From Bryobacterales bacterium KBS 96 (GTDB lineage: Bacteria; Acidobacteriota; Terriglobia; Bryobacterales; Bryobacteraceae): DNA of 64,000 bases. The notes below the pieces were generated by a model that ran no database searches, was not told the DNA's origin, and was given only the letters and a program-made list of their open reading frames with translations. A program made the position numbers and the translations under genes. Location of the stretch: positions 2,086,629 through 2,150,628 of the forward strand of contig KB906767.1 in NCBI GenBank assembly GCA_000381625.1, given 5' to 3'. Positions 5,946 to 60,081 of this stretch are shown here, one piece after another (the stretch's first letter is position 1; the number at the start of each line of letters is the position of its first letter).

Positions 5946-5969
5946 GAACGGTGAACAGACAGGGCGCGC

Positions 5970-8999: not shown

Positions 9000-9150
9000 A
9001 CTGTCGACCTCTAGGTGAAAGCGATATTTCGTAACCGTTACGGCCTTCGGTCCAGCAGTTCGACTCGGTGTTATATTTCTGCGTTACGGAAAACTAAGCG
9101 ACGGAGCGTCGAATGGTTACAGTACCAAGACTCGCCGCGGCGGCATCACC

Positions 9151-18956: not shown

Positions 18957-19046
18957 GGTGAGGTGCGAGAGCGGTTGAATCGGGCGGTCTCGAAAACCGT
19001 TGAACCTTCACGGGTTCCGTGGGTTCGAATCCCACCCTCACCGCCA
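18957..19046 (+). tRNA. tRNA-Ser(CGA), chromosomal, integration target
   Basis: The acceptor GGTGAGG pairs with CCTCACC, then G73 and an encoded CCA. The anticodon stem is GCGGT/ACCGT with loop CTCGAAA (U33, anticodon CGA), followed by a long serine-type variable arm. The 3' end lies 86 bp from the stop of a tyrosine integrase gene, which makes this the probable attachment site of the island that starts here. Confidence 0.95.
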
Positions 19047-19103
19047 GAAAATAAAGGACTTAGCTGAATTCCAGCAAGTCCGCAGTTAAGGCTGTTTTGG
19101 GCT

Positions 19104-19125
19104 CCGTGCAAATGCCGTGCAAATG
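19104..19125 (+). repeat. Tandem 11-bp direct repeat between tRNA-Ser and integrase
   Basis: CCGTGCAAATG occurs twice back to back, right between the tRNA 3' end and the 3' end of the integrase gene. By position these could be arm-type binding sites of the integrase. Confidence 0.6.
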
Positions 19126-19131: not shown

Positions 19132-20328
19132 TCATCTTGGCTTCTTCGCTCCTTTCTTCTCCAGTTGTTTCTTGATCATTTCGTCGACCGTGTCGGCGGC
19201 TCTTTCATCATCGCCGCTCATCACGTGCGCGTAGATATTCAGCGTGACGGTTGGATTGGCGTGCCCGAGACGTTGCGAGACTGTTCTCAGCGGAATGCCC
19301 CTGCGCAGCAGCTCGGAAGCATGGGTATGTCGCAGGTCGTGGAACCGGGTGTCTCTTGTACTGATGCGCCGCGAGAAGGCGATGTACGCGTCGGTGAAAT
19401 CGTCCGGAGCCCAGGGAGTGCCGTCCGCTAATGGCATAACCAGATCGAACTTCGGATAATCAGGCCCAAACAATTTTCTGATCTTGTCCTGATTCGCCCT
19501 ATGCTCCAGCAGGGCGGCGATAAGGCAGTCAGGCAATGCAATCGTGCGATGAGATTTCTTGTTTTTCGTGGGCTTGAACTTCAGCCCGCCGGCGCGGGTT
19601 TGACCAAGGGCCTGATTAACGGTCAGCCGGGAATTCTCAAAATCGATGTCGCTCCAACGAAGCCCAAGGATTTCACCGCGCCGCATTCCGGTGCAGAGTC
19701 CCATCAGGATGGGAAGATACAGAACGGTATTCTCGGCAGATCCGAGCAATAAAGTTGAGCGATCTTCCTCCACCGCTTTGACCTCCTTGCGCACCGGACG
19801 AGGCGCTTGGACAGCGTTCGCGGGGTTTGTGGGGCGTAATTGCCACATGACGGCCTGTTTTAGCGCTTTACTCAGAAGGCGATGAATATGTAGAACCGTT
19901 TGCGTGCTCAGGCCCTTGCCCGTACGTCGGTTTCCGGCCGTGCTGGACCAGGTATAGAACTCGGCGAGTTGAACTGGTTGAAGTTTGCACATTTGAATCG
20001 GCCCGAGCCTTGGGTTGATGTTGACCTCGACTAGCTGTTTGTAACGCTCAAAGGTCTTGTCTCCAAGGCTCGGTTTAACCGTTGTCAGCCAGCGATCCAA
20101 ATACTCTGCGACAGTTTGCTTCGACTGCTCAACGTACGTGCCATCATCGATGGTCCGAAGAAGTTTGTTGAGTTGAGTCTGTGCTGCCTTCCGCGTTCGA
20201 AAGCCGCGTATCCAGCGGTACGAATCGCGTAATTTCCCGTTTCGTGCGACACGTTTGCCTTCGTAAACAATGGCAGCCCAGAGCTTGCCGCCCTTCTTCA
20301 GATCGTAATCACGAACATGGCCTCTCAT
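19132..20328 (-). CDS. int: Tyrosine-type site-specific integrase
   Basis: 398 aa phage-type integrase: an N-terminal AP2-like arm-binding region (about 1-60), a SAM-like core-binding domain (about 62-150) and a catalytic domain. Catalytic residues visible are Arg in GLCTGMRRGEILGLRW, the H-x-x-R of FHDLRHTHASELL (about 330-340), His in QRLGHANPTVT and the nucleophile Tyr in LNIYAHVM (about 366). It points toward the tRNA-Ser gene, as in islands integrated at tRNA 3' ends. A small excisionase-like gene lies upstream. Confidence 0.95.
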   Translation of the reverse strand: MRGHVRDYDLKKGGKLWAAIVYEGKRVARNGKLRDSYRWIRGFRTRKAAQTQLNKLLRTIDDGTYVEQSKQTVAEYLDRWLTTVKPSLGDKTFERYKQLVEVNINPRLGPIQMCKLQPVQLAEFYTWSSTAGNRRTGKGLSTQTVLHIHRLLSKALKQAVMWQLRPTNPANAVQAPRPVRKEVKAVEEDRSTLLLGSAENTVLYLPILMGLCTGMRRGEILGLRWSDIDFENSRLTVNQALGQTRAGGLKFKPTKNKKSHRTIALPDCLIAALLEHRANQDKIRKLFGPDYPKFDLVMPLADGTPWAPDDFTDAYIAFSRRISTRDTRFHDLRHTHASELLRRGIPLRTVSQRLGHANPTVTLNIYAHVMSGDDERAADTVDEMIKKQLEKKGAKKPR

Positions 20329-30968: not shown

Positions 30969-30981
30969 CAGAGCTCCCGCG

Positions 30982-33111: not shown

Positions 33112-33135
33112 CAGACCTTCCCTCTCCGGCGCGAA

Positions 33136-43703: not shown

Positions 43704-44120
43704 TTGGATATAACTGACGTGGTGCGGCGATCCGGCGTTTCTGCTTCGACGCTGCGGTTCTATGAGGAAAAACGGCTGATCGCCTCGACCGGCAGACGGG
43801 GCCTGCACCGCCTGTTCGATCCCGGCGTGCTGGACCGGCTGGCGTTGATCGCGCTGGGGCAAGCTGCGGGCTTCTCGCTCGATGAGATCGCGCTCATGTT
43901 CGGGCCTGGCGGGCGGCCGCGCATTGACCGACATATGCTCGCGGCCAAGGCGGATGAGCTAGACACAAAGATCCGCGAACTCAGCGCCATGCGCGACGGC
44001 CTGCGCCACGCCGCTGCTTGCCCCGCACGGAGCCACATGGAATGTCCCACTTTTCGTCGTCTCTTACGAGCCGCCGCATCTGGAACTGCAGGGGCGCGAA
44101 GGAAAAAGATTGCAACTTGA
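43704..44120 (+). CDS. MerR-family transcriptional regulator
   Basis: 138 aa from a TTG start. The N-terminal MerR winged helix is VVRRSGVSASTLRFYEEKRLI, followed by a dimerisation helix and a C-terminal CPARSHMECPTFRRLL with two Cys, as in thiol- or metal-sensing members. It is divergent from the methyltransferase gene, with the operator between them. Confidence 0.9.
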   Translation: MDITDVVRRSGVSASTLRFYEEKRLIASTGRRGLHRLFDPGVLDRLALIALGQAAGFSLDEIALMFGPGGRPRIDRHMLAAKADELDTKIRELSAMRDGLRHAAACPARSHMECPTFRRLLRAAASGTAGARRKKIAT

Positions 44121-44482
44121 TTCAGGGCGGGTTGGCGACATCCGAAAGTTGCCCTGTCGCAAGCGGACTTCGCGGTCAGTATCTAGCGTTCACTTTCCGG
44201 ATTGCCGACGATCCACTCCAACACCTGAGAGCCCACAATGGCCAAGTTCCGTTCCAGTCGTCATTTCGGTGATGCCGGGCAGAGCAGTTCGCGGCACGAA
44301 CCTCTTGCAATATGTCGCTGGCTGAAATTTAGGAGGCACCATGAGCGGGGTATGCGGTTTTTCTGGGGCTCATTTCCGCGGCGAGAATAGCAGGCGTTTG
44401 ACCTAGCGAGCTTTTGGTTACGAACGGCAGCGCAGCTGTCGACCCGCGAACATCGCCGACGACATCAAACAGCATTCGGACA
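44121..44482 (+). other. Intergenic region, nothing recognised
   Basis: About 360 bp between the MerR gene and the 3' end of the nuclease-like gene. No convincing open frame, tRNA, hairpin or repeat is visible. Confidence 0.4.
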
Positions 44483-46444: not shown

Positions 46445-46837
46445 TGCTTGGCCACGCGGGCGGTATGGGATTCGGCTCGGAACATCGTCTCATAGAGTGG
46501 CGTCGTCCCGGTCGCGCGCTGCCAATTCCCAGCGCACACGAGCCTTGGATCACTGCCAGAGGTAGCCCCGCGGTAAATGCTGGATCGCCTGTTAGCAGCG
46601 GAAGCCTGCGTCGAGAACGCCTTTAGCGTCCCCGCAAGGAGTTGTCCGACGTCGAGCGACAGATCGGCAGACTCGAGTACTATCCTGGCGCGAAGCATTA
46701 CCTATTGAAGAGCATCACGCAGAACCTGAGCGTGAATCCCGGCTGAGGGCAGATAGCAGCCTCAAAGGAAATCATATTGGTGAGTGGTCACCGACTCGTT
46801 GACTGCGGCGTCGCGTTCCATGCGACGACACGTCGCC
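46445..46837 (+). other. Intergenic region with a short orphan open stretch
   Basis: Nearly 400 bp without a recognisable gene. A 39-codon in-frame stretch at 46627-46746 (RQIGRLEYYPGAKHYLLKSITQ) looks protein-like but has no start, so it may be a gene remnant. Confidence 0.35.
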
Positions 46838-47812
46838 TCACGCCGTCGGCTGAAGCGCGAGCTTGCCGAGATAGTGTTCGTTGAGGCTGCGCTGAGCGTC
46901 GGCGGCCCGCTCCAGCGTAAAGGTCCGCGCGATGTGCACTTCAAAAGGGCCGGCATCGATCAAATGATTGAGCTTGTCAAAGACTTGACGATTGGGTTGT
47001 CCGTTGTAGCTTTGTGCTTTTACATTCTTGGGGGCTTTCGGCACAGGCTCGACGCCGTTCGGAAACGCTACGCGGCCGCCCTCACGTAATGCGGCTAGCG
47101 CTTGGTCCACGTCGGGACCGCCCGCAGTCACGAGAGCCGCATCCATCCCTTGAGGAGCGAACGCGCGAGCCGCTGCGAGGATATCGTCCTTATGCCCGTT
47201 GACGGCTGCATCGGCGCCCAGCTTTTTCGTCAGCTGCACGCCGTCTTCGCCGGAGGCTACCGCCAGGACTTTTGCGCCCATTCGTTTAGCCAACTGAATC
47301 GCCATATGGCCGATCCCTCCGCTCGCGCCAAAGATCATGACCGTCTCGCCCGATTTTAGATGAAGCGTATCATCCAACCCTTGGAGCGCTGTGACGGCGT
47401 CGACGGCCATCACGCCCGCCTGCTGAATCGAAAGCTTCTTAGGTACGGCGGCGGCGTGCTCCGCTTTGAGGGTCGCAAACTGCGCATAAAAGCCGCCCTT
47501 GGGATTCATCAAATTAATCCCGTAGACGCGGTCTCCTTTTTTCAGTCCGTGTACCTCCTTCCCTACCGATTCCACAGTGCCCGCGCCGTCGGAACCCAAT
47601 ACATAAGGAAACTGCGGTTTGACGCCGAACTCTCTGGCGAATCCGCCTTCACGCTCAAACGGATCCCACGCGCCCACGCCCGCTGTTTCGACGTGAACCA
47701 AAATCTCGTCAGGGGCCACCTGGGGAATGGGCAAGTCCCGCACCTTCATCTTTTCGATCCCCCCGAACTCATCGATCGCGACAGCCTTCATCGTTTTTGA
47801 TTGTTGATTCAC
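46838..47812 (-). CDS. Zinc-independent medium-chain dehydrogenase/quinone oxidoreductase
   Basis: 324 aa from a GTG at 47812, placed 9 nt after AGGAGA; an ATG at 47791 is an alternative. The substrate-binding GroES-like domain begins MKAVAIDEFGGIEKMKVRDLPIPQVAPDEILV. The NAD(P) loop is MIFGASGGIGHMAIQLAKRMGAKVLAV. No zinc-ligand cysteines are present. A standard NADPH:quinone reductase-like enzyme. Confidence 0.9.
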   Translation of the reverse strand: MNQQSKTMKAVAIDEFGGIEKMKVRDLPIPQVAPDEILVHVETAGVGAWDPFEREGGFAREFGVKPQFPYVLGSDGAGTVESVGKEVHGLKKGDRVYGINLMNPKGGFYAQFATLKAEHAAAVPKKLSIQQAGVMAVDAVTALQGLDDTLHLKSGETVMIFGASGGIGHMAIQLAKRMGAKVLAVASGEDGVQLTKKLGADAAVNGHKDDILAAARAFAPQGMDAALVTAGGPDVDQALAALREGGRVAFPNGVEPVPKAPKNVKAQSYNGQPNRQVFDKLNHLIDAGPFEVHIARTFTLERAADAQRSLNEHYLGKLALQPTA

Positions 47813-48278: not shown

Positions 48279-48308
48279 TTGACAGGTTTGCCGTACGTCC
48301 TTTACGAT
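48279..48308 (+). promoter_or_regulatory. Sigma-70-type promoter of the tRNA array
   Basis: TTGACA, 18-bp spacer, TACGAT, about 100 bp before the first tRNA. The leader just downstream holds a 7-bp inverted repeat ATTGAGA / TCTCAAT (48307-48340). Confidence 0.65.
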
Positions 48309-48408
48309 TGAGAACGTCCAATGAAAAAGCTACTCTCAATCCTCTGTAGCTTCGACTGCTTATCGTCCCGATATTGCAGTTATCTCTCCCTGTAAATTTT
48401 CACGTTTT

Positions 48409-48483
48409 GCGCTGAAAGCCAATTGGTTAGGCGGCGGCCTGCAGAGCCGCTCATGGTCGGTTCGATTCCGTCTCAGCGCTCCA
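48409..48483 (+). tRNA. tRNA-Cys(GCA)
   Basis: Acceptor GCGCTGA/TCAGCGC, U73, encoded CCA. Anticodon stem GCGGC/GCCGC, loop CTGCAGA. First gene of the array. Confidence 0.93.
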
Positions 48484-48485
48484 AT

Positions 48486-48563
48486 GGCCGGGTAGCCCAA
48501 TTGGCAGGAGGCGTCTGTTTTAGAAACAGAACAGTGCGGGTTCGAATCCCTCCTCGGCCACCA
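48486..48563 (+). tRNA. tRNA-Leu(UAG) with short variable arm
   Basis: Acceptor GGCCGGG/CTCGGCC, A73, CCA. Anticodon stem TCTGT/ACAGA, loop TTTAGAA. The variable region is only 5 nt, whereas bacterial tRNA-Leu normally has a long arm. A73, a leucine identity base, is kept. The T stem has one mismatch. Confidence 0.85.
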
Positions 48564-48579
48564 AGTTCTTTGACAAATT

Positions 48580-48668
48580 GGAAGGTGCCGCTGAATGGTC
48601 GGCGAGCGGTCCCGAAAACCGTGGACTGGTAATGAACCAGTGGGGTTCGATCCCTCCGCCTTCCGCCA
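48580..48668 (+). tRNA. tRNA-Ser(CGA) with C33
   Basis: Acceptor GGAAGGT/GCCTTCC, G73, CCA, long serine-type variable arm. Anticodon stem GCGGT/ACCGT, loop CCCGAAA: the nearly invariant U33 is C. The chromosomal Ser(CGA) at 18957 has the same anticodon stem with U33. Confidence 0.88.
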
Positions 48669-48679
48669 AATTCTCAAGT

Positions 48680-48769
48680 GGTGGATCCGGCATTGGTGTG
48701 CCAGGCGGTTTGCTAAATCGTGCGCGTTTCAACAGACGCGTGTCGGTTCAACTCTGACATCCACCGCCA
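48680..48769 (+). tRNA. tRNA-Ser(GCU)
   Basis: Acceptor GGTGGAT/ATCCACC, G73, CCA. Anticodon stem GCGGT/ATCGT with G-U pairs, loop TTGCTAA, long variable arm. Confidence 0.9.
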
Positions 48770-48772
48770 AAT

Positions 48773-48865
48773 GCGTCGGTGGCAGAGCGGCGAATGCGAC
48801 AGCCTGTAGAGCTGTTCTCCCTTGCGGAGCCAACACCGGTGGTTCAAGTCCATCCCGGCGCACCA
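48773..48865 (+). tRNA. tRNA-Tyr(GUA)
   Basis: Acceptor GCGTCGG/CCGGCGC, A73, CCA. Anticodon stem ACAGC/GCTGT, loop CTGTAGA, long tyrosine-type variable arm. Confidence 0.92.
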
Positions 48866-48873
48866 AGTTTTAT

Positions 48874-48951
48874 GGCCGGCTGATGGCAACTGGCAGACCT
48901 GCAAAGCTCAAGCCTTTGCGCATCGGAGTTCGAATCTCCGGCCGGCCACCA
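48874..48951 (+). tRNA. tRNA-Leu(CAA) with short variable arm
   Basis: Perfect acceptor GGCCGGC/GCCGGCC, A73, CCA. Anticodon stem CAAAG/CTTTG extended by one G-C pair, loop CTCAAGC. The variable region is 5 nt instead of a class II leucine arm. Confidence 0.85.
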
Positions 48952-48992
48952 AACAATGTTATGCGAGCAACGACAGCGACGGACTAGAATGT

Positions 48993-49069
48993 GCGCCCGT
49001 AGTCCGAAAGGCAGGAGACACCTGATTTAAACCAGGACAGTGAGAGTTCGAATCTCTCCGGGCGCACCA
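48993..49069 (+). tRNA. tRNA, probably Leu(UAA), with irregular anticodon arm
   Basis: Acceptor GCGCCCG/CGGGCGC, A73, CCA, T stem GAGAG/CTCTC. The anticodon arm spans 16 nt rather than 17: CCTG/CAGG encloses ATTTAAAC, giving either an 8-nt loop or a 6-nt loop under an A-C mismatch. UAA is the likely anticodon by comparison with the two other short-arm Leu tRNAs. It may be non-functional. Confidence 0.65.
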
Positions 49070-49173
49070 GCACAAGGCTATTTATCCGATTCCGGCACGC
49101 GCGAAAACATCGAACAAGCATTGTCGCGCTAATCACTAAAGAACATTCAACTCACTGTTAGGAAAATTGGTAC

Positions 49174-49352
49174 TTGCAATCTGTACGACGGAGAGTTACT
49201 ATTTTCTCAGTCATGTTGTTTCTGACCTCAATCCGATACGCGACACCCGCCAATCAACCGGGACAGGGTACGCATGTCTGGATTCGGGGTAGGTGAGACC
49301 TGACGATAGTTAGGAATTGCACGGCCCTGGATCCAAAAGATCCGGGGCTTTT
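49174..49352 (+). ncRNA. Candidate small RNA 1 with own promoter and terminator
   Basis: The promoter is TTGCAA, 17-bp spacer, TACTAT (49174-49202). A strong hairpin, GCCCTGGATC / GATCCGGGGC with a CAAAA loop (49324-49348), runs into a T-rich tract. The transcript would be about 145 nt and holds no open frame. It resembles candidate small RNA 2 at 54390-54577 in promoter, in the motifs ATACGCG and GAATT, and in the CCGGGGCTTTT terminator. It lies just before the Asn-Gln-Gln-Gly-Phe-Pro tRNA block. Confidence 0.5.
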
Positions 49353-49373
49353 GCTTTTTACAGGAGGATTTTT

Positions 49374-49450
49374 TCCGAGGTAGCCAAGCTGGGAAGGCAC
49401 CTGACTGTTAATCAGGCCATGCGCAGGTTCGAGTCCTGCCCTCGGAGCCA
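49374..49450 (+). tRNA. tRNA-Asn(GUU)
   Basis: Acceptor TCCGAGG/CCTCGGA, G73, CCA. Anticodon stem CCTGA/TCAGG, loop CTGTTAA. Confidence 0.94.
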
Positions 49451-49458
49451 AAGTGTAT

Positions 49459-49534
49459 TGGCGAGTGGTGTAACTGGTAACACGTTCGGCTCTGAACCGA
49501 AAGACTCTGGGATCGTATCCTAGCTCGCCAGCCA
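49459..49534 (+). tRNA. tRNA-Gln(CUG)
   Basis: Acceptor TGGCGAG/CTCGCCA, G73, CCA. Anticodon stem TTCGG/CCGAA, loop CTCTGAA. Confidence 0.93.
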
Positions 49535-49547
49535 AGTTTGTGTGTGT

Positions 49548-49623
49548 TCGGATGTGGGCGAATCGGCAAGCCGTCTCGCTTTGAACGAGAAGATTCCGGG
49601 TTCGAGTCCTAGCGTCCGAGCCA
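49548..49623 (+). tRNA. tRNA-Gln(UUG)
   Basis: Acceptor TCGGATG/CGTCCGA, G73, CCA. Anticodon stem TCTCG/CGAGA, loop CTTTGAA. Confidence 0.93.
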
Positions 49624-49630
49624 AATTTTT

Positions 49631-49706
49631 GCGGATGTAGTTCAGCGGCGAGAATGCGACCGTGCCAAGGTCGAGGCCATGGGTTCGAGTCCCATCATCC
49701 GCTCCA
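49631..49706 (+). tRNA. tRNA-Gly(GCC)
   Basis: Acceptor GCGGATG/CATCCGC, U73, CCA. Anticodon stem CGACC/GGTCG, loop GTGCCAA. Confidence 0.94.
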
Positions 49707-49717
49707 AGAATGTAAGT

Positions 49718-49793
49718 GGCTCTCTCGCGTAGCTGGTGCGCGCGGCGATTTGAAGCATCGCAGGATTCAGTTCGATTCTGAGGGGAGCCACCA
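49718..49793 (+). tRNA. tRNA-Phe(GAA)
   Basis: Acceptor GGCTCTC/GGGAGCC, A73, CCA. Anticodon stem GCGAT/ATCGC, loop TTGAAGC. Confidence 0.92.
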
Positions 49794-49807
49794 AGTGTTG
49801 TAAGTTT

Positions 49808-49884
49808 CGGGGCGTACGCCAGCGGCTAAGCCACTAGTTTTTGGGAACTAGCGATCGCGTGTTCGAGTCACGCGGCCCCGACCA
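49808..49884 (+). tRNA. tRNA-Pro(UGG) with expanded anticodon loop
   Basis: Acceptor CGGGGCG/GGCCCCG with a G-G mismatch at the seventh pair, A73, CCA. Anticodon stem CTAGT/ACTAG encloses eight bases (TTTTGGGA) instead of seven, or six bases if an extra T-A pair forms. A second, normal Pro(UGG) is at 52112. Eight-base loops are known from +1 frameshift suppressor tRNAs. Confidence 0.8.
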
Positions 49885-49910
49885 ATCGTTTTAGAAGAAG
49901 GGCATTCGTT

Positions 49911-51113
49911 ATGCAGATAATCGACAATATTCCAGTCTTTGGTTCGGCTGTTGACGAAGGCGCTCTTCGTCAGATAAAGACCTGCTATTACATCTTCGGC
50001 AAGGCCGCCCTGATGGGTGATCATCACAAGGGCTATGGCGTACCGATCGGCGGAGTCATCGCACACGAATATCTAATCAGTCCATCCGGTGTGGGCTACG
50101 ACATAGGCTGCGGAAACCACGCAGTATGTACGGATGCCGACGCGTCTGACGTACGCAAGAACATTGCTCGAATAATGGATGATGTCTGGAGCACGGTCAG
50201 CTTTGGCCTAGCGCGTAAGAACAAAGAGATGGTCGATCACGTACTGTTCGAAGACGATGCTGCTTGGCAGATTACGCAGGGTGCAAACTCTGCAACTTGG
50301 CGACTGACCTCATTACGGGATCTAGCTCGGCAGCAGCTTGGAACTGTTGGTTCTGGCAATCATTACGTCGACATCTTTATTGATGAGCGCGACAAGGTCT
50401 GGATTGGTGTTCACTTCGGATCGCGCGGATTCGGTCACAAGATCGCAACGCGCTTTCTAACGCGAGCAGGGGCAAAGGACGATATGGACTCAGCTCCAGT
50501 CGCTCTAGATTCGAGGACCAACGAGGGCCAGGATTACATCGCGGCCATGAAGCTCGCTGGGCGCTACGCGTACGCGGGAAGGGAATGGGTCTGCGCTCGA
50601 GTGCTCAAGATGCTGGGTGCGAGGGCAATGGATTCAGTCCACAACCATCACAATTTCGCTTGACGCGAGAAGCACGGTGGAACTGACCTCTGGGTAGTAC
50701 GCAAAGGCGCAACTCCAGCGTTTCCTGGTCAGCGCGGATTTGTCGGCGGAACGATGACTGAGAACGCGGTCATTCTCGAAGGAGTTGAGTCTCCAGATTC
50801 TGCAATGACGCTGTGCTCGACGGTGCATGGCGCCGGCCGCGTGATGGGGCGACGTGAAGCGACTGGAGTGTTTGATAAGCAATCCGGTACGTACAAGCGC
50901 GCTCCGAAGGTAACGGAAGAGATGATGATGGGTTCGGTTAAAGAGGCTGGAATCGAGTTGCGTGGAGCTGGGGTTGATGAAAGCCCATTCTGCTACAAGC
51001 GTCTTCCAGAGGTTCTTGCCGAACACCAGGATAGTGTTCGTATCCTGCACACGCTAAAGCCAATTGGTGTAGCGATGGCAGGCAAAGACTGTTACGACCC
51101 ATACAAAGATTGA
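49911..51113 (+). CDS. rtcB: RtcB-family RNA ligase with in-frame UGA codon
   Basis: 400 codons, close to the usual RtcB length of about 400. RtcB joins RNA 2',3'-cyclic phosphate and 5'-OH ends using Mn2+ and GTP. Family motifs: KAALMGDHHKGYGVPIGGVIA, SPSGVGYDIGCGNHAV (metal ligand Cys), GTVGSGNHYVDIF and HFGSRGFGHKIA, then HNHHNFA, stop, and in the same frame DLWVVRKGATPAFPGQRGFVGGTMTENAV. The TGA at 50661-50663 (codon 251) replaces a position that is normally Trp (HNHHNFAW). No other stop or frameshift occurs, so it is a recent nonsense change, a sequencing error or a read-through site. The ATG at 49911 follows AGAAGGGC. Embedded in the tRNA array. Confidence 0.85.
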
Positions 51114-51145
51114 GGAATCGATTACTAAACAGACCGTATATTTAC

Positions 51146-51220
51146 GCTGTGATAGCTCAGCTGGCAGAGCGGCGCATTCGTAACGCGCAGACCGGAGTTC
51201 GATTCTCCGTCGCAGCTCCA
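51146..51220 (+). tRNA. tRNA-Thr(CGU)
   Basis: Acceptor GCTGTGA/TCGCAGC, U73, CCA. Anticodon stem GCGCA/CGCGC with an A-C mismatch at 31-39, loop TTCGTAA. It lies between rtcB and the HNH gene. Confidence 0.9.
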
Positions 51221-51253
51221 GAGAATTAGTCGATGAATAGAAAGGAGGTTCGT

Positions 51254-51757
51254 GTGATCTTAACGCCGGTCTTAGTTTTGAACGCAAGCTATGAGCCGAT
51301 CGCGGTCTGCCTGGCGCGGCGCGCGCTAACCATGATCGCGAAAGGCGTGGCCCGGATCGAAGAGGCGCACGATATCTTCGTTCATCGAGAGCTCAGACTA
51401 CCTTCGGTGATCCGGCTGCGCGACTATCGCCGCGTTCCGGTGCGCCGGCATACCGTCTCGAGGCGAAACATCTTTATCCGCGACCGGCACAGGTGCCAGT
51501 ACTGCAAGCAGTGCTTCCCTGGCCTGCGGCTGACGTTGGATCACGTGACTCCGAAGTCGCGCGGCGGTTTATCCATTTGGGAAAACCTGGTCACCAGCTG
51601 CCGCGAGTGCAATGCGAAGAAGGCAAACCGCACTCCGGCAGAGGCCGGCATGCCGCTCGCGGTTGTACCGCGAGCGATGAGCCTGCACAGCGCGCGGCAT
51701 GTACTCCGGCGCATTGGTGAAGAGGATCCGAAATGGCGACCGTATCTGTACTTTTGA
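51254..51757 (+). CDS. HNH endonuclease inside the tRNA array
   Basis: 167 aa from the GTG at 51254, placed right after AAAGGAGG; the open frame extends back to 51233. N-terminal PVLVLNASYEPIAVCLARRALTMI is typical of a widespread bacterial HNH family. The nuclease core is IFIRDRHRCQYCKQCFPGLRLTLDHVTPKSRGGLSIWENLVTSCRECNAKKANRTP with the CxxC pairs and the DH catalytic motif. The stop codon ends one base before tRNA-Thr(GGU). It could be a homing-type or array-mobilising nuclease, or a passenger. Confidence 0.92.
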   Translation: MILTPVLVLNASYEPIAVCLARRALTMIAKGVARIEEAHDIFVHRELRLPSVIRLRDYRRVPVRRHTVSRRNIFIRDRHRCQYCKQCFPGLRLTLDHVTPKSRGGLSIWENLVTSCRECNAKKANRTPAEAGMPLAVVPRAMSLHSARHVLRRIGEEDPKWRPYLYF

Positions 51758-51831
51758 GCCTTTGTCGTTCAGTGGCAGGACGACTCCTTGGTAAGGAGTA
51801 AACCCGAGTTCGATTCTCGGCATTGGCTCCA
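51758..51831 (+). tRNA. tRNA-Thr(GGU) with weak acceptor stem
   Basis: Anticodon stem ACTCC/GGAGT, loop TTGGTAA, T stem CGAG/CTCG, U73, CCA. The acceptor GCCTTTG/CATTGGC has two adjacent T-T mismatches. It starts directly at the base after the HNH stop codon. Confidence 0.82.
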
Positions 51832-51848
51832 GAGTTAATGCAATGTGA

Positions 51849-51924
51849 GCCGGGGTAGTTCAGCTGGCAGAATGCCTCTTTTGTAAAGAGGAGATCGCGA
51901 GTTCAATCCTCGCTCCCGGCTCCA
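51849..51924 (+). tRNA. tRNA-Thr(UGU)
   Basis: Acceptor GCCGGGG/TCCCGGC, U73, CCA. Anticodon stem CCTCT/AGAGG, loop TTTGTAA. Confidence 0.93.
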
Positions 51925-51937
51925 GTGTTTTTGTCTG

Positions 51938-52013
51938 GTGGCGTTAGCTCAACTGGCGAGAGCGCCTGGCTGTGAACCAGGAGGTTGCGGGTCAAATCCC
52001 GCACGTCACCCCA
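51938..52013 (+). tRNA. tRNA-His(GUG)
   Basis: Acceptor GTGGCGT/ACGTCAC, C73 as expected for histidine, CCA. Anticodon stem CCTGG/CCAGG, loop CTGTGAA. Confidence 0.93.
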
Positions 52014-52024
52014 AAGTTTAATGT

Positions 52025-52103
52025 GGGTCGCGGGGCTGCTCGGGGTGGCCATCTCCCTTGCAAGGAGAAGCGCAGCAGAGTTCAAATCTCTGGCGATCCA
52101 CCA
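52025..52103 (+). tRNA. tRNA-Ala(UGC)
   Basis: Acceptor GGGTCGC/GCGATCC with a G-T pair at position 3-70, where alanine tRNAs carry their identity G-U. A73, CCA. Anticodon stem TCTCC/GGAGA, loop CTTGCAA. Confidence 0.9.
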
Positions 52104-52111
52104 AAGTTTAT

Positions 52112-52188
52112 CTGGGTGTGGGGGAGTGGCATAACCCGTCTGCCTTGGGAGCAGAAGATCGCAGGTTCAAGTCCTGCCACCCAGACCA
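52112..52188 (+). tRNA. tRNA-Pro(UGG), regular
   Basis: Perfect acceptor CTGGGTG/CACCCAG, A73, CCA. Anticodon stem TCTGC/GCAGA, loop CTTGGGA of normal length. Confidence 0.93.
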
Positions 52189-52231
52189 AAGTTTTTTGGC
52201 GAAAAGGAGAGAAAACATCCGATAGAAGAGT

Positions 52232-52304
52232 GGGACAGGCCGGCCGATTTCGGTTATCAACTGTTAATTGATGCCAACCCGAGATCAACACCTTTGCTTG
52301 TCCT
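52232..52304 (+). ncRNA. Y-RNA-like RNA A (no tRNA-like domain)
   Basis: The basal stem GGGACAGGC/GCTTGTCCT pairs over 9 bp. Next comes the conserved 5' box GGCCGATTTCGGTTATC (52242-52258). The 3' side reads GATCAACACCTTT just before the basal stem; GTTATC can pair with GATCAAC leaving one bulged C, as in the Ro-binding helix of Y RNAs. The loop region is short. First of four tandem copies upstream of the Ro60 gene. Confidence 0.6.
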
Positions 52305-52313
52305 GAAGATTTT

Positions 52314-52456
52314 GCCGCAGGCCGGACGATTTGGATTATCCTCCTGGGAAGGCGAGGTCGCTGGTTCGAATCCAGCCCGCTCCAGAAATTGAAGTATGGG
52401 GCGGTAGCTCAGTGGCTAGAGCGCGTAAAAACTCCAGGTCACATTTTGCTTGCGGC
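52314..52456 (+). ncRNA. Y-RNA-like RNA B with permuted tRNA-like domain (YrlA type)
   Basis: Basal stem GCCGCAGGC/GCTTGCGGC (9 bp), 5' box GGACGATTTGGATTATC (52324-52340), 3' box GGTCACATTTT. The interior is a tRNA in circularly permuted order: a closing helix CCTGG/CCAGG in the anticodon-stem position, a T arm GCTGG-TTCGAAT-CCAGC (52360-52376), an acceptor helix CCGCTCC/GGGGCGG (52377-52383 with 52398-52404) closed by a 14-nt loop, and a D arm GCTC-AGTGGCTA-GAGC (52407-52422). Bacterial YrlA RNAs are known to carry such a tRNA mimic. Confidence 0.75.
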
Positions 52457-52464
52457 TTCAAATT

Positions 52465-52559
52465 TCTGTGTGCAGGACGATTTGGTTTATCTCTGACAGG
52501 TACGGGTAACCGTATGGCGGTTCGACTCCGCTAATACCAGATCATTATTTGCTCACAGA
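52465..52559 (+). ncRNA. Y-RNA-like RNA C with reduced tRNA-like domain
   Basis: Basal stem TCTGTGTGC/GCTCACAGA with one T-T mismatch, 5' box GGACGATTTGGTTTATC (52475-52491), 3' box AGATCATTATTT. The interior has a helix GGTA/TACC that encloses a small GUAA-tetraloop hairpin (CGG/CCG) in place of the D arm and a T-arm-like hairpin GCGG-TTCGACT-CCGC (about 52516-52532). Confidence 0.65.
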
Positions 52560-52569
52560 GGCGGACATT

Positions 52570-52657
52570 CTGCGTGCCGGACGATTTGGGTTATCGTCAC
52601 CACTACTCGATGATGGGCGTGACTGCCCATTGGCCCAGGTCACTGATTTGCTCGCAG
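52570..52657 (+). ncRNA. Y-RNA-like RNA D
   Basis: Basal stem CTGCGTGC/GCTCGCAG with the same T-T mismatch as copy C, 5' box GGACGATTTGGGTTATC (52579-52595), 3' box GGTCACTGATTT. The interior has an ATGGGC/GCCCAT hairpin instead of a T arm. It ends 8 bp before the ribosome binding site of the Ro60 gene. Confidence 0.6.
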
Positions 52658-52681
52658 GACTTATACAAGGAGCGCACTAAC

Positions 52682-54355
52682 ATGTCGAACTATCTAACAA
52701 AGATCGGAGTCCGGACGCGCAAGGCGCCACAAACGGAAGCGATTCCGGGCCGTGAGCGCGAGATGACGCGCAACAATGCCGGCGGTGTGGCATTCACCGC
52801 GGACGCCTGGATCCGGCTGGAGCGCTGGCTATTGCTTGGCAGCGAAGGTGGTTCGTACTACGTCTCCGAGGCTGACTTGACCAAGCAGAATGTGGCCAAC
52901 GTGCGTGCCGCCATCGCCGAAGACGGCGAGCGCGCCGTAAAAATGATCGTTGACGTCTCGGTTGCCGGCCGTGCGCCAAAGAACGATCCAGCGCTATACG
53001 CGCTGGCTCTGGCGGCTTCGAGCGCCGATGCAAAGACGCGCGAGCGTGCGCTGGCCGCGTTGCCACAAGTGGCGCGTACGGGTACGCACCTGTTCCAGTT
53101 CGTCGCATTCATTGACGGAATGCGGGGCTGGGGTCCAGCTCTGCGCAAGGCGATCGCGCAGTGGTACACAGCGAAGACGCCCGTAGACCGCCTGGGCTAT
53201 CAGCTGGTGAAGTACCAGCAGCGCGGCGGCTGGAGCCACCGCGATCTGTTCCGCTTGGCCCACGTGCCAATGAACGATGCGGTTGCACGCTGGATTACGG
53301 GCGCGGAATACGGCGAACACAACGTCAAGCGCTATGCCGGCAAGAACCTGCTGCGCGAAGATCATTATCCAGCTCTGAATTCGGAATTGCCAGTCATTAT
53401 GCAGGCCTTCGAGCAAGCGAAGCAGGCCGATGAGACGACGGTGATTCGTCTGGTTCGGGAGCACGGTTTGACCCGGGAGATGATCCCAACCGAGCACCAA
53501 AAGTCGGCCGCGGTCTGGGAGGCATTGCTGGAAAAAATGCCAATCGGCGCGATGCTGCGCACGTTGGGCCGCATGGGTGCCTGTGATTTGTTGGCGCCGT
53601 TCTCGGATGCCGCAAAGCTTGTGACCAACAGGCTGGGCGACCGGGAGCTGCTTCGCAAGGCGCGTGTGCATCCCATAGACGTATTGAAGGCTCTGCTTGT
53701 ATACCAGGCAGGGCACGGCGACAAGGGATCCCTAAGCTGGACGGCTGTCCCGCAGGTAGTGGACGCGCTGAATGGCGCGTACTACCAGGCGTTTCAGTTT
53801 GTGCCAGCTACGGGCAAGCGCTTCTTTCTGGGTATCGACGTGTCGGGCTCGATGACCATGGGAAGGGTGGCCGGCTTTGCCGGTCTCACCCCAAACATGG
53901 GCGCCGCGGCTATGGCGATGTTGATTGCCCGGACGGAGCCAAACCACTTCATTGGCGGTTTCGCCACGCAGTTCGTGGATTTGAAAATCTCGGCTAGCGA
54001 TCGTCTGGATGCGGCCATGAAGAAGTGCCAGCGTAACTTCGGCGGCACGGATACGACGGTGGCGATCGACTACGCACAGAAGCATAAGTATGCAGTCGAT
54101 GCGTTCGTCGTGATCACGGACGGCGAAACGTGGGCGGGAGACCAGCACACGTCGCAGGCACTTGAGAGCTACCGGCGCAAGATGGGTCTGGATACGAAGC
54201 TGATCGTTATCAACATGGTGGCGAATCGCACGCGTATCACGGATCCAACCGATGCCGGTTCGCTCGACATCGTTGGCTTTGATACGTCGGTACCAACGGT
54301 GATGCATGCTTTCCTCGGAGGGAGCCCTGAGTTTCCTGAAGAGGAAGCAGCTTAA
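52682..54355 (+). CDS. rsr: Ro60-like protein (Rsr), TROVE and vWA domains
   Basis: 557 aa from the ATG at 52682, preceded by AAGGAG; the open frame reaches back into the upstream RNA gene. Residues about 20-370 are the ring of HEAT-like TROVE repeats that binds the 3' ends of misfolded RNAs and Y RNAs. The C-terminal von Willebrand A domain starts at FFLGIDVSGSM (MIDAS DxSxS, about 385) and contains FVVITDGETW. Bacterial Rsr works with Y RNA as an adaptor to exoribonucleases and is often encoded near rtcB. Here it follows four Y-RNA-like genes and shares the locus with rtcB and 33 tRNAs. Confidence 0.95.
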   Translation: MSNYLTKIGVRTRKAPQTEAIPGREREMTRNNAGGVAFTADAWIRLERWLLLGSEGGSYYVSEADLTKQNVANVRAAIAEDGERAVKMIVDVSVAGRAPKNDPALYALALAASSADAKTRERALAALPQVARTGTHLFQFVAFIDGMRGWGPALRKAIAQWYTAKTPVDRLGYQLVKYQQRGGWSHRDLFRLAHVPMNDAVARWITGAEYGEHNVKRYAGKNLLREDHYPALNSELPVIMQAFEQAKQADETTVIRLVREHGLTREMIPTEHQKSAAVWEALLEKMPIGAMLRTLGRMGACDLLAPFSDAAKLVTNRLGDRELLRKARVHPIDVLKALLVYQAGHGDKGSLSWTAVPQVVDALNGAYYQAFQFVPATGKRFFLGIDVSGSMTMGRVAGFAGLTPNMGAAAMAMLIARTEPNHFIGGFATQFVDLKISASDRLDAAMKKCQRNFGGTDTTVAIDYAQKHKYAVDAFVVITDGETWAGDQHTSQALESYRRKMGLDTKLIVINMVANRTRITDPTDAGSLDIVGFDTSVPTVMHAFLGGSPEFPEEEAA

Positions 54356-54359
54356 GAAT

Positions 54360-54387
54360 AACTGGAGGACCGAATAGTCCTCCAGTT
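54360..54387 (+). terminator. Hairpin after the Ro60 gene
   Basis: AACTGGAGGAC / GTCCTCCAGTT is a perfect 11-bp stem with a 6-nt loop, 5 bp after the stop codon. The T tract is poor (ACTTGCTATTT), so termination may be partial or the hairpin may protect the mRNA end. Confidence 0.65.
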
Positions 54388-54389
54388 AC

Positions 54390-54577
54390 TTGCTATTTCA
54401 CGCGAGAGTATGTATTCTGTTCTTGTTCGCATGAGACTTTCCGTCATACGCGCGGTCGATAGCATCCGAGGAAAAGGGATGTGGGAACGCGTGTGTCCGG
54501 AGGGTTTCATCTAATCGACTAACTTACAGTCGTAGAATTTAGAAGCCCCGGATACCTAAAAGGTTCCGGGGCTTTTT
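54390..54577 (+). ncRNA. Candidate small RNA 2 with own promoter and terminator
   Basis: The promoter is TTGCTA, 17-bp spacer, TATTCT (54390-54418). The terminator is a 10-bp stem AAGCCCCGGA / TCCGGGGCTT (54543-54574) running into five T. The expected transcript is about 150 nt and has no open frame. Motifs ATACGCG, AACGCGTG, TCCGGA and GAATTT lie in the same order as similar motifs in candidate small RNA 1. It precedes the second large tRNA block. Confidence 0.5.
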
Positions 54578-54584
54578 CCATTTG

Positions 54585-54614
54585 TTGGTTTGTTCTTTTA
54601 CAACTGAATACTAT
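54585..54614 (+). promoter_or_regulatory. Promoter of the second tRNA block
   Basis: TTGGTT, 18-bp spacer, TACTAT, ending 9 bp before tRNA-Trp and just after the terminator of small RNA 2. Confidence 0.5.
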
Positions 54615-54622
54615 TTCTTTAC

Positions 54623-54697
54623 GCCGGGATCGTTCAGCGGCTAGGACGGCTGCCTCCAGAACAGCTTACGAGGGTTCGAGTCCTTCTCCCGGTGCCA
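54623..54697 (+). tRNA. tRNA-Trp(CCA), irregular anticodon stem
   Basis: Acceptor GCCGGGA/TCCCGGT with a terminal G-T pair, G73, CCA. Anticodon stem GCTGC/ACAGC with a C-A mismatch at 31-39, loop CTCCAGA. The D arm (ATCGTTCAGCGGCTAGGAC) looks like that of a tRNA-Glu. It is the only Trp tRNA in the array. Confidence 0.78.
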
Positions 54698-54700
54698 AAC

Positions 54701-54775
54701 GCGGTGGGGGCAGGTTGGATATGCACTCGGCTGTCTACCGAGACGAAGCGGGTTCGATTCCCGTCTGCCGCGCCA
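54701..54775 (+). tRNA. tRNA-Asp(GUC)
   Basis: Acceptor GCGGTGG/CTGCCGC, G73, CCA. Anticodon stem CTCGG/CCGAG, loop CTGTCTA. Confidence 0.92.
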
Positions 54776-54787
54776 AAAGAGTTCTAT

Positions 54788-54866
54788 TGCGGAGTGGACT
54801 GGAGTCTGGCCCCAGCTTGGTCTCATAAGCCAAACCACGTGAGTTCGAATCTCACCTCCGCAACCA
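54788..54866 (+). tRNA. tRNA-Met(CAU)
   Basis: Acceptor TGCGGAG/CTCCGCA, A73, CCA. Anticodon stem TTGGT/GCCAA, loop CTCATAA. A paired position 1-72 argues against an initiator. A lysidine-modified Ile tRNA cannot be excluded. Confidence 0.88.
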
Positions 54867-54891
54867 GTTCTTATTCGATGAGTTCATAAGT

Positions 54892-54984
54892 GGCCGCGAG
54901 ATGTATGGTGCATGGGCGGATTTATAACCCGCATAATCCCCGGATCAGGGTACTGACTGGGTTCGAATCCCAGCACGGCCACCA
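54892..54984 (+). tRNA. tRNA with UAU anticodon and long variable arm
   Basis: Acceptor GGCCGCG/CACGGCC with one mismatch, A73, CCA, T stem CTGGG/CCCAG. Anticodon stem GCGGA/CCCGC with an A-C mismatch at 31-39, loop TTTATAA, hence UAU (isoleucine AUA codon). The variable region of about 24 nt is class II-like, which is not seen in isoleucine tRNAs, so its charging identity is uncertain. Confidence 0.7.
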
Positions 54985-54988
54985 ACGC

Positions 54989-55063
54989 GGATCGTAAGCT
55001 TTGTCGGCGAAGCACTCGACTCTTAATCGAGAGAGCAGAGTTCAATTCTCTGACGATCCACCA
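54989..55063 (+). tRNA. tRNA-Lys(CUU)
   Basis: Perfect acceptor GGATCGT/ACGATCC, A73, CCA. Anticodon stem CTCGA/TCGAG, loop CTCTTAA. Confidence 0.93.
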
Positions 55064-55071
55064 ATGTCTAT

Positions 55072-55148
55072 GGGCTGCAAGCTTTGACGGTTTGAAGCAC
55101 CGGGCTTTTAACTCGGGGAGCCGGATTCGAGTTCCGGGCGGCCCACCA
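55072..55148 (+). tRNA. tRNA-Lys(UUU)
   Basis: Acceptor GGGCTGC/GCGGCCC, A73, CCA. Anticodon stem CCGGG/CTCGG, loop CTTTTAA. Confidence 0.92.
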
Positions 55149-55155
55149 GGAGTTT

Positions 55156-55233
55156 GCTGCCGTACCAGCGCTGTCTTCTAAACAGCAGGCTGTAAGTGGA
55201 TCGATGAGGGTTCGAGTCCTTCCGGCAGCGCCA
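55156..55233 (+). tRNA. tRNA-Arg(UCU) lacking a normal D arm
   Basis: Acceptor GCTGCCG/CGGCAGC, G73, CCA, T stem GAGGG/CCTTC. Anticodon stem GCTGT/ACAGC, loop CTTCTAA. Only seven bases (TACCAGC) separate the acceptor and anticodon stems, so no D arm can form, while 19 bases follow the anticodon stem. CAGC and GCTG could extend the anticodon helix. Possibly a pseudo-tRNA. Confidence 0.65.
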
Positions 55234-55242
55234 GAGCGTCAT

Positions 55243-55319
55243 GGCGATGTGGGCAAGTGGGTTAAGCCACCGCTCCTTCAAAGCGGTCATCGCGGGTTCG
55301 AATCCCGCCATCGCCACCA
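55243..55319 (+). tRNA. tRNA-Glu(UUC) with C33
   Basis: Perfect acceptor GGCGATG/CATCGCC, A73, CCA. Anticodon stem CCGCT/AGCGG, loop CCTTCAA, so the anticodon is UUC preceded by C33 instead of U33. Confidence 0.82.
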
Positions 55320-55326
55320 AGTTAGC

Positions 55327-55403
55327 GGTTCCGTAGTTCAGTGGATGAGAACGCCTCGGTCCTAACGAGGATGTCGCCAGTTCGAGTCTGGCCGGAACCT
55401 CCA
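55327..55403 (+). tRNA. tRNA-Arg(CCU)
   Basis: Perfect acceptor GGTTCCG/CGGAACC, U73, CCA. Anticodon stem CCTCG/CGAGG, loop GTCCTAA. Confidence 0.92.
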
Positions 55404-55405
55404 AT

Positions 55406-55483
55406 GTGCCCGTAGCTCAGCGGATTTAGAGTATCGCGCTACGAACGCGGGGGCCGCAGGTTCGAATCCTGCCGGGCACACCA
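55406..55483 (+). tRNA. tRNA-Arg(ACG)
   Basis: Perfect acceptor GTGCCCG/CGGGCAC, A73, CCA. Anticodon stem TCGCG/CGCGG, loop CTACGAA; A34 is expected to be deaminated to inosine. Confidence 0.93.
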
Positions 55484-55490
55484 AGATTTT

Positions 55491-55568
55491 GGGCGGCTAG
55501 CTCACTGGGTTTAGAGCGCGACTCTCCGAAAGTCGAGGTAGATGGTTCGATTCCATTGCCGCCCTCCA
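55491..55568 (+). tRNA. tRNA-Arg(CCG)
   Basis: Perfect acceptor GGGCGGC/GCCGCCC, U73, CCA. Anticodon stem CGACT/AGTCG, loop CTCCGAA. Confidence 0.92.
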
Positions 55569-55578
55569 AAAAAGTTTT

Positions 55579-55657
55579 GCCCGAGTAACTCAGTCTGGCG
55601 TAGAGTGCCTCTCCTACAAAGAGGAAACCGGTGATTCAAATCCATCCTCGGGTACCA
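55579..55657 (+). tRNA. tRNA-Val(UAC) with C33
   Basis: Acceptor GCCCGAG/CTCGGGT with a terminal G-T pair, A73, CCA. Anticodon stem CCTCT/AGAGG, loop CCTACAA, again with C33. The T stem has one A-C mismatch. Confidence 0.82.
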
Positions 55658-55662
55658 ACTTT

Positions 55663-55736
55663 ACTTCCGTCGTCCAACGGCAGGACCCGCGCCCGATTAG
55701 CGCGTGATCAAGGTTCAAATCCTTGCGGGAGTACCA
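55663..55736 (+). tRNA. tRNA-Ile(GAU) with C33
   Basis: Acceptor ACTTCCG/CGGGAGT, A73, CCA. Anticodon stem CGCGC/GCGCG, loop CCGATTA, with C33. Confidence 0.83.
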
Positions 55737-55742
55737 GAGTTT

Positions 55743-55818
55743 GCGGGGATAGTGTTTAACGGCAGCACATCTCTCTTCCAAAGAGAAGGTACCGATTCGA
55801 CTTCGGTTCTCCGCTCCA
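55743..55818 (+). tRNA. tRNA-Gly(UCC), last of the array
   Basis: Acceptor GCGGGGA/TCTCCGC, U73, CCA. Anticodon stem TCTCT/AGAGA, loop CTTCCAA. Confidence 0.92.
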
Positions 55819-58609: not shown

Positions 58610-58876
58610 ATGTCCAGTGCCGATACTCTGAACTCGCGCGCGTATCTCCGACAGATGCACCTGATCATTCCCACCGGAACAAAGGTCGTGAGCCGACATG
58701 ACCGCCGCGTCGGATTTGTCGTGCATGCGCCGGCCTCACTCGATGGCCTGTACCGTTGTCGGCGGACAGAATCGACGATTGTTAGGGCGAACGGCCGACG
58801 GTTTGGCGGATCGACTGGCGGACGTGTCATCCCAGCGTTGTTCTGGCAATTGCGTTCGCAATCTGTCCGTCGATGA
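58610..58876 (+). CDS. Small hypothetical protein
   Basis: 88 aa from the ATG at 58610. The first 55 residues (LIIPTGTKVVSRHDRRVGFVVHAPASLDGLYRC) read like a small beta-barrel. The 3' end overlaps the end of the convergent hipA gene by 50 bp, so the true protein may be shorter or the call false. Confidence 0.35.
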   Translation: MSSADTLNSRAYLRQMHLIIPTGTKVVSRHDRRVGFVVHAPASLDGLYRCRRTESTIVRANGRRFGGSTGGRVIPALFWQLRSQSVRR

Positions 58877-60077: not shown

Positions 60078-60081
60078 CGGT

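Follow-up and report, generated by a model that had tools for sequence, protein, structure and literature searches.

Anti-defence by nuclease-resistant tRNAs is a leading recent idea for why phages carry tRNA arrays, and the role of Ro60 and Y RNAs in bacteria is known in few species. Here we describe a stretch of 64,000 nucleotides (hereafter the window) from the soil bacterium Bryobacterales bacterium KBS 96 (contig KB906767.1, positions 2,086,629 to 2,150,628), in which a second full set of tRNA genes sits on the chromosome together with genes for an RtcB-family RNA ligase, an HNH endonuclease and a Ro60-like protein and with four Y-like RNAs. Coordinates refer to the window unless prefixed by C1, which denotes the host contig. 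We infer, with moderate confidence, that this locus is an anti-defence module of jumbo-phage lineage captured in an acidobacterial chromosome, in which backup tRNAs are combined with RNA quality control.

Published systems are cited here from excerpts of the respective papers. Mycobacteria, their phages and plasmids carry large tRNA array units that, like the window, are redundant with the chromosomal tRNA genes, have an HNH gene embedded or nearby and show horizontal transfer, and an anti-defence role has been suggested for these units (PMC5966550, PMC12803027, PMC9569102). The terms RtcB and TROVE, however, are absent from the main text of the mycobacterial array papers (PMC5966550, PMC12803027). 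HNH genes and GOLLD RNA accompany large mycobacterial tRNA clusters, and yrlA occurs in some mycobacteria, with no link to the arrays made in the excerpt (PMC9569102); an Rfam search of the array region of the window gave no GOLLD match. The Anabaena trn operon likewise provides a second tRNA set beside the housekeeping set and is connected to rtcB and an HNH gene, but its rtcB is a separate chromosomal gene, and the excerpt mentions neither Y RNAs nor Ro60 (PMC10272220). The Salmonella rsr-yrlBA-rtcBA operon unites Ro60, a YrlA-type Y RNA and RtcB, as the window does, but includes no tRNA array in its published description (PMC7790460); the host genome of the window has no match to RtcA or RtcR, so that an rtcBA RNA repair operon is not recognised in it.

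Related arrays occur in viruses. Among phage records, the top-ranked matches to HNH and RtcB (51% and 61%, respectively) come from the cultured acidobacterial jumbo phage Tunturi_5 (PP885688), which has 43 tRNAs covering 20 amino acids as well as a tRNA splicing ligase (PMC11924767). Both genes lie in its tRNA array, the HNH gene standing between Thr(CGU) and Thr(GGU) as in the window, and the two tRNA orders have a longest common subsequence (LCS) of 16, compared with a shuffle maximum of 11. Tunturi_5 differs in that its tRNAs are scattered among phage genes, a tRNA nucleotidyltransferase gene is present, and its 24.5 kb stretch contains no Ro60 match. Two IMG/VR contigs, L355 and L441 (L numbers designate comparison loci), combine a tRNA array with an HNH gene, several Y-like RNAs and a Ro60 gene (46% and 65% identity, respectively), but have no RtcB match in the stretches examined. 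Across all stretches examined, an array of at least five tRNAs with both RtcB and Ro60 occurs in the window alone.

The array comprises 33 tRNA genes, all on the + strand, between 48409 and 55818 (7.41 kb, or 4.5 tRNAs per kb), which places it above the thresholds of at least 20 tRNAs and at least 2 per kb for a tRNA array unit or L-array (PMC5966550, PMC6409571). ARAGORN alone finds 31 of these genes; Ser(CGA) at 48580-48668 and Arg(UCU) at 55156-55233 were added from Rfam and the sequence, the former being matched by the Rfam tRNA-Sec model at a score under the gathering score of that model, and the tRNA at 54788, called 'Ala(agc)' by ARAGORN, is re-read as Met(CAU). The genes carry 32 distinct anticodons (UGG twice) covering 20 amino acids, and CCA is encoded in all 33, in 32 as found by script and in Ser(CGA) as read at 48666-48668. 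Regular 7-nt anticodon loops are present in 31 tRNAs (by ARAGORN or by eye), and Leu(UAA) at 48993 and Pro at 49808 have irregular loops according to ARAGORN, the one of Pro being 8 nt long. A left block (48409..49069) contains Cys, Leu(UAG), Ser(CGA), Ser(GCU), Tyr, Leu(CAA) and the irregular Leu(UAA), followed at 49374..49884 by Asn, Gln(CUG), Gln(UUG), Gly(GCC), Phe and the irregular Pro(UGG). Beyond the RtcB gene, Thr(CGU) (51146..51220, by ARAGORN) precedes the HNH gene, and Thr(GGU), Thr(UGU), His, Ala(UGC) and Pro(UGG) (51758..52188) follow it. After the Y-like RNAs and the Ro60 gene, a right block runs from 54623 with Trp, Asp, Met, Ile(UAU), Lys(CUU), Lys(UUU) and Arg(UCU), continuing with Glu, Arg(CCU), Arg(ACG), Arg(CCG), Val, Ile(GAU) and Gly(UCC) to 55818. 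The initial annotation had listed 33 + strand tRNAs with 32 anticodons, all 20 amino acids and encoded CCA, with which ARAGORN, Rfam and the sequence agree, and had described them as interrupted by RtcB, HNH, Ro60 and small RNAs, as borne out by matches to PF01139, PF14279/PF01844 and PF05731 with PF25045 and by the four Y-like RNAs. That gene list stands with refinements: the RtcB frame is interrupted, and the HNH protein is of the usual array-associated kind and no obvious effector.

The order of the tRNAs points to a phage source. Among the best 80 viral loci retrieved with the HNH protein as bait, 58 have at least 10 tRNAs and 74 at least five, most of the contigs being viral by IMG/VR's own call. 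When the tRNA order of the window was compared with 72 arrays, the agreement lay beyond all 500 shuffles for 37 of them and not for the other 35, the best match having an LCS of 23 of the 33 tRNAs compared with a shuffle maximum of 13. These array counts are not independent, because the comparison set includes overlapping contig copies (L171/L388, L172/L367, L173/L360, L182/L351 and L070/L087) and near-identical ones. The Thr(CGU)-HNH-Thr(GGU) slot recurs in many viral arrays, so that the window has both the conserved order and the HNH slot of a Thr-HNH-Thr phage array type; carriage on a phage genome is not seen, the contig measuring 6,690,628 bp with no phage structural gene among the neighbours scanned.

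A second tRNA order is recognisable among the viral arrays. Compared with L167, the arrays of L068, L070, L171, L393, L399, L400 and L441 share 18-29 tRNAs in order, each above 500 shuffles, and L355, L091, L335 and L114 do not share this order. The window (13) and L359 stay within the shuffle maximum of the same comparison, and L031 and L356 lie slightly above it. In the RtcB tree, the window groups with L067, L068, L167, L314 and L069 (support 100), of which L068 and L167 belong to the second order type; L067 (6 tRNAs) and L314 (8) are too short for order typing, and L069 has no tRNA in 7.7 kb. The nearest relative of the Ro60 protein, from L441, also sits in a second-order array. Since the tRNA order of the window is of the first type and its RtcB and Ro60 kin lie in second-order arrays, the locus is, by these sequence relationships, a mosaic in which pieces of two array lineages meet.

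The Ro60/Rsr-like gene (52682..54355, +) is intact and encodes a TROVE domain (PF05731) and a vWA_Ro60 domain (PF25045, MIDAS motif DVSGS), which score above the Pfam cut-offs at 136.5 and 170 bits, respectively. The protein is a divergent family member, reaching 488.3 bits with the NCBIfam model NF041674 (RNA-bind_Rsr), whose equivalog cut-off is 900, and is the sole TROVE match in the host genome. The nearest relative (65% identity) comes from the viral contig L441, where 29 tRNAs and an HNH gene accompany it. In the Ro60 tree, the copies of the window and L441 are sisters (support 99) within an otherwise all-viral set, and the four host-family copies included, out of eight fetched loci, lie outside across a branch with support 100. 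The Ro60 gene of L355 occupies the corresponding gap, between Arg(ACG) and Trp(CCA), that of the window lying between Pro(UGG) and Trp(CCA). Viral Ro60 genes were retrieved with an alignment as bait, a single-sequence bait having given nothing. Distant Ro60-like genes (23-30% identity of the matched part) were also seen in or beside the viral tRNA arrays of L396 (10579-11958), L410 (6315-8063) and L411 (13100-14689), and Rhodococcus phage Trina has a Ro60 gene among tRNAs.

Upstream of the Ro60 gene stand four tandem copies of a 17-base core, GGMCGATTTNGNTTATC, a pattern derived from these same four copies and found 0 times in 100 shuffles. This core, which we take to be the Ro60-binding site as in known Y RNAs, is enclosed by a paired outer stem in Y-like RNAs that adjoin the Ro60 gene, all on the + strand: Y-like RNA 1 (52231..52305), 2 (52314..52456), 3 (52463..52561) and 4 (52568..52659). 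When folded singly, RNAs 3 and 4 are more stable than shuffles (z of -3.9 and -2.7), and RNA 1, folded on a shortened piece, and RNA 2 (z of -1.3) are not. RNA 2 is YrlA-like, with a permuted tRNA-like module recognised by eye and fold, and matches the Rfam YrlA model (RF02553) at 32.7 bits (E 3.8e-4), under the gathering score of 69. Five Y-like RNAs precede Ro60 in L441 and eight in L355, as placed by eye, a small additional ORF standing amid those of L355. Two YrlA-model matches in L355 (41 and 24.1 bits) are also under the gathering score, and the one in L441 (36.5 bits) overlaps tRNA genes and none of the five Y-like RNAs. Over the 17 Y-like RNAs of the window, L355 and L441, the outer-stem arms pair with their own partners at 6.2 bp on average, compared with 3.9 bp with those of others; none of 5000 permutations reaches the observed sum, and a single register is common to 15 of the 17, the placement of the cores by eye being a bias to weigh in this test. 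A stem-plus-motif descriptor recovered two of the four Y-like RNAs of the window and four of the eight of L355, but detected no such RNA ahead of the Ro60 genes of Trina, Phosso, Dandelion, L274, L275 and L276; a relaxed regular expression for the Y motif was dropped as too loose. One RNA of L355 (11758-11895) carries a tRNA-like insert (11799-11865, Rfam tRNA 33.7 bits) that does not have the permuted YrlA form. The least expected finding of this comparison is the occurrence, in three separate arrays, of tandem and varied Y-like RNAs next to a phage-type Ro60 gene. Among the papers listed by searches of the open PMC library, no title or abstract opening describes a tRNA array that contains Ro60 together with several Y RNAs.

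The RtcB-family gene (49911..51113, +) matches PF01139 above the cut-off in two pieces, divided by an in-frame TGA at 50661-50663 (codon 251), with active-site motifs found on each side. At this position, the eight aligned relatives, all of which read through, have one invariant residue. Reading of the TGA as selenocysteine was considered, the host having a tRNA-Sec, and set aside because the invariant residue of the eight relatives is not cysteine; a sequencing error is a possible source. The RtcB subfamily of the window was tried as a marker of arrays and rejected: arrays of at least 10 tRNAs were found at 3 of 80 genome-contig loci and at 6 of 80 viral loci, no Ro60 match accompanying those viral loci, and five or more tRNAs at 1 of 17 class-scan loci. 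Arrays with a canonical RtcB (31-32% identity) were seen in L335 (28 tRNAs in 20 kb) and L083 (8 tRNAs, at a contig start). Since these RtcB proteins belong outside the subfamily of the window, RtcB has probably joined arrays more than once, as judged from sequence. The Phycisphaeraceae assembly represented by L114, far from Acidobacteriota, has a 35-tRNA array with RtcB and HNH genes.

The HNH gene (51233..51757, +; PF14279/PF01844) occupies the slot between Thr(CGU) and Thr(GGU) and has an intact frame with its motifs present. The state of these genes bears on whether the locus is a decaying phage remnant that was swept in by a mobile element and has no present function. The TGA in RtcB, the two tRNAs with irregular anticodon loops and the lack of any phage structural gene among the 10 ORFs neighbouring the array agree with decay. 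However, the 31 regular 7-nt loops, CCA in every tRNA, the intact HNH and Ro60 frames and the paired stems kept by all four Y-like RNAs argue for preservation, and the viral arrays of L355 and L441 have tRNA scores of similar size; we regard a mere remnant as fairly unlikely.

The host genome consists of one contig of 6,690,628 bp and a further 1.5 kb, and outside the array it encodes 47 tRNAs with 45 anticodons, so that the array is supernumerary, as in a tRNA array unit or L-array. Of the array tRNAs, 31 were compared with host tRNAs of their isotype and show 50-75% identity to the closest one; the script left the two irregular-loop tRNAs unassigned. Of 199 other genomes of the family, 12 have the RtcB subfamily of the window (at least 56% identity in the best piece), some of them with fragments only, and the one sampled genome of the same genus, 88% complete, has neither an RtcB nor an Ro60 match. 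These three results also speak against an ordinary core tRNA cluster of the species, an explanation refuted by the full host tRNA set elsewhere in the genome and of practically no remaining probability. The initial annotation had itself raised the case of the 33 tRNAs being the only copies, which they are not; a supernumerary, patchy and phage-type array agrees with the 47 divergent host tRNAs and the sparse distribution of the RtcB subfamily. The same comparison bears on codon compensation, in which the array would serve codons rare in the host. Ile(UAU) is the one clear new anticodon that it adds, but, with UAA and UGG taken as the anticodons of the irregular Leu and Pro tRNAs, the host already has all the others, and this explanation is very unlikely.

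Candidate regulatory signals in the array are at chance level. A promoter-like site (TTGACA-18-TACGAT, 10 of 12 matches) lies upstream of the first tRNA at 48279..48308, +, such sites numbering 3 in the region where 3.5 are expected; terminator-like sites number 8, with 7.3 expected. The terminator scan places a hairpin followed by a T run immediately 5' of tRNA-Asn (49323..49349, +) and another strong hairpin 3' of the Ro60 stop (54359-54388). A GC-rich hairpin with a T run 5' of tRNA-Trp (54545..54580, +) was read in the sequence and is absent from the scan list; by eye, a similar one precedes tRNA-Trp in L355. The hairpins 5' of tRNA-Asn and tRNA-Trp could be attenuators or small-RNA ends.

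The array lies inside a 105 kb stretch between direct repeats. A host tRNA-Ser(CGA) (18957..19046, +), the apparent target of an element, contributes its 3' end and the following bases to the left, att-like repeat (19018..19115, +) and is adjoined by a tyrosine integrase gene (19132..20328, -; PF00589). The right repeat (C1:2210903-2211000), outside the window, is 90% identical to the left one over 98 bp and adjoins a second, short integrase-like ORF. An integrase beside a tRNA gene and direct repeats of the tRNA 3' end mark the stretch between the repeats as a candidate integrative element on sequence grounds, of which the array is probably cargo; two elements in tandem may be present. The mobile setting proposed at the outset is therefore upheld by the repeats of the tRNA-Ser 3' end that flank the array and the integrase beside one of them. 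Among the listed matches of 31 genomes, the own one included, no relative has both flanks conserved around an empty site. An ArdC-like protein is encoded near the integrase, and 22074-36111 contains a Druantia type II-like locus with Vsr, a cytosine methylase, a PD-(D/E)XK protein (DruK-like), a DruE2-like helicase (2047 bits) and a DruF2-like protein, in which 30982-33111 has no match in PADLOC or Pfam. Downstream of the array, a HipA/HipB-like pair was noticed at 58827-60420. Two segments, 44000-44210 and 46805-47493, are copied in the same order just past the second direct repeat, at C1:2214010-2214220 (95%) and C1:2215160-2215848 (92%), respectively.

With regard to function, phage tRNAs have been proposed to replace host tRNAs cut by anticodon nucleases, and anticodon-loop changes have been proposed as a signature of nuclease insensitivity, position 33 going unnamed in the excerpt (PMC10264068). 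In the array, C33 replaces U33 in 4 of the 33 tRNAs, namely Ser(CGA), Glu, Val and Ile(GAU), and a residue other than U33 occurs in none of the 46 host tRNAs checked, compared with 137 of 1432 viral-array tRNAs. The RtcB and TROVE proteins of jumbo phages have been interpreted as RNA repair (PMC7824862), and it has been suggested that YrlA might act, through its tRNA-like part, as a competitor for an anticodon nuclease (PMC7790460).

Several observations weigh against a captured phage anti-defence module. The anticodon loop equals that of the host in 11 of the 30 array tRNAs with a same-anticodon host counterpart, and in Tunturi_5 only 1 of 31 tRNAs departs from U33, so nuclease evasion cannot be general. 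PHROGs searches of five IMG/VR contigs (two ORFs each) gave a strong viral hallmark in L441 only, a terminase; L173 gave a weak internal-virion match, L355 transposases only, and L167 and L356 nothing diagnostic. HNH alone cannot show origin, because HNH genes of Acidobacteriota that lie outside arrays reach the same similarity as phage HNH genes (52-58% for the 29 best) and the HNH tree leaves the window copy on a long branch without a resolved position; 28 of these 29 loci have no tRNA within 1.5 kb and one has a single tRNA. The RtcB gene, the sole RtcB match in the host genome, lacks an uninterrupted frame because of the TGA at codon 251. The 105-kb stretch also holds metabolic genes (its contents include type I restriction subunits, TonB receptors, malate synthase and lactate permease, among others), and the large ORFs scanned, a part of the total, include no conjugation gene.

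The combination of genes is likewise limited in its reach. Among the 58 HNH-baited viral arrays, RtcB is present in five and Ro60 in four, and none has both; three of the four Ro60 matches are distant (23-30%), and one RtcB match is partial at 32%. Because of these counts RtcB and Ro60 are optional cargo: on the sequences compared, HNH is the steady partner of such arrays and the other two are minority passengers. Ro60-baited viral loci have at least 10 tRNAs in 11 of 80 cases, none with an RtcB match, which is not clearly commoner than the 2 of 32 loci obtained with phage ribonucleotide reductase, used as the control bait because UvsX yielded just 2 loci; the sequence link between Ro60 and tRNA arrays is suggestive. 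RtcB and Ro60-like genes also occur together without arrays, in L139, L147, L150 and L158 (4 of 80 genome-contig loci) and in L086 and L343; in L150, from Cohnella endophytica, RtcB (50%) and a Ro60-like gene (27%) share about 8.5 kb (2805-11215) with four tRNAs. The initial annotation had expected rtcB and Ro genes to be enriched in similar arrays. Both do occur there, so the expectation does not fail outright, but they do so as a minority and the co-occurrence is weaker than claimed. When the C33 residues and the fit with published proposals are weighed against the shared loops and Tunturi_5, the phage origin of the array is well supported by sequence and an anti-defence role appears likely.

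In phages, an anti-defence module of this kind would sustain translation while tRNAs are being cut by host defences. It would supply a second, divergent tRNA set with anticodon loops partly unlike those of the host, and RtcB would reseal broken RNA ends. Ro60 and the several Y RNAs, among which one mimics a tRNA, would bind or sort damaged tRNAs and may tether a nuclease, and the HNH protein is probably a nuclease of the homing type, through which the array spreads and is reshuffled. In the present host, the module would at best be a silent reserve for tRNA damage and may already decay. The main functional rival is a bacterial stress reserve (L-array) of the Anabaena trn operon kind, which would stay silent during normal growth, come on under impaired translation and be retained because it serves the host itself, not as anti-defence. 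In Anabaena, ribosome-targeting antibiotics induce the array of 26 tRNAs, whose repressor also controls rtcB, and mutation of this repressor raises expression of an HNH gene (PMC10272220); the Ro60/Y-RNA block and the tRNA order of the window, however, indicate a phage source, and we consider such a reserve somewhat unlikely. A more specific form of the anti-defence module is doubtful: the battery of Y RNAs, some with whole tRNA-like modules, and Ro60 might together serve as decoys or adaptors towards defence nucleases that cut tRNAs, with broken tRNAs handed on to RtcB, forming one anti-defence system in phage tRNA arrays. If this were true, backup tRNAs, decoys, damage sorting and resealing would be united in a single system, captured beside a Druantia II-like locus.

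The locus bears on the question of why phages carry, and some bacteria keep, tRNA arrays. With a full backup tRNA set, an RNA ligase, Ro60 and several Y RNAs side by side, it makes the anti-defence idea testable in one locus, and it offers a reason for bacterial Ro60 and Y RNAs.

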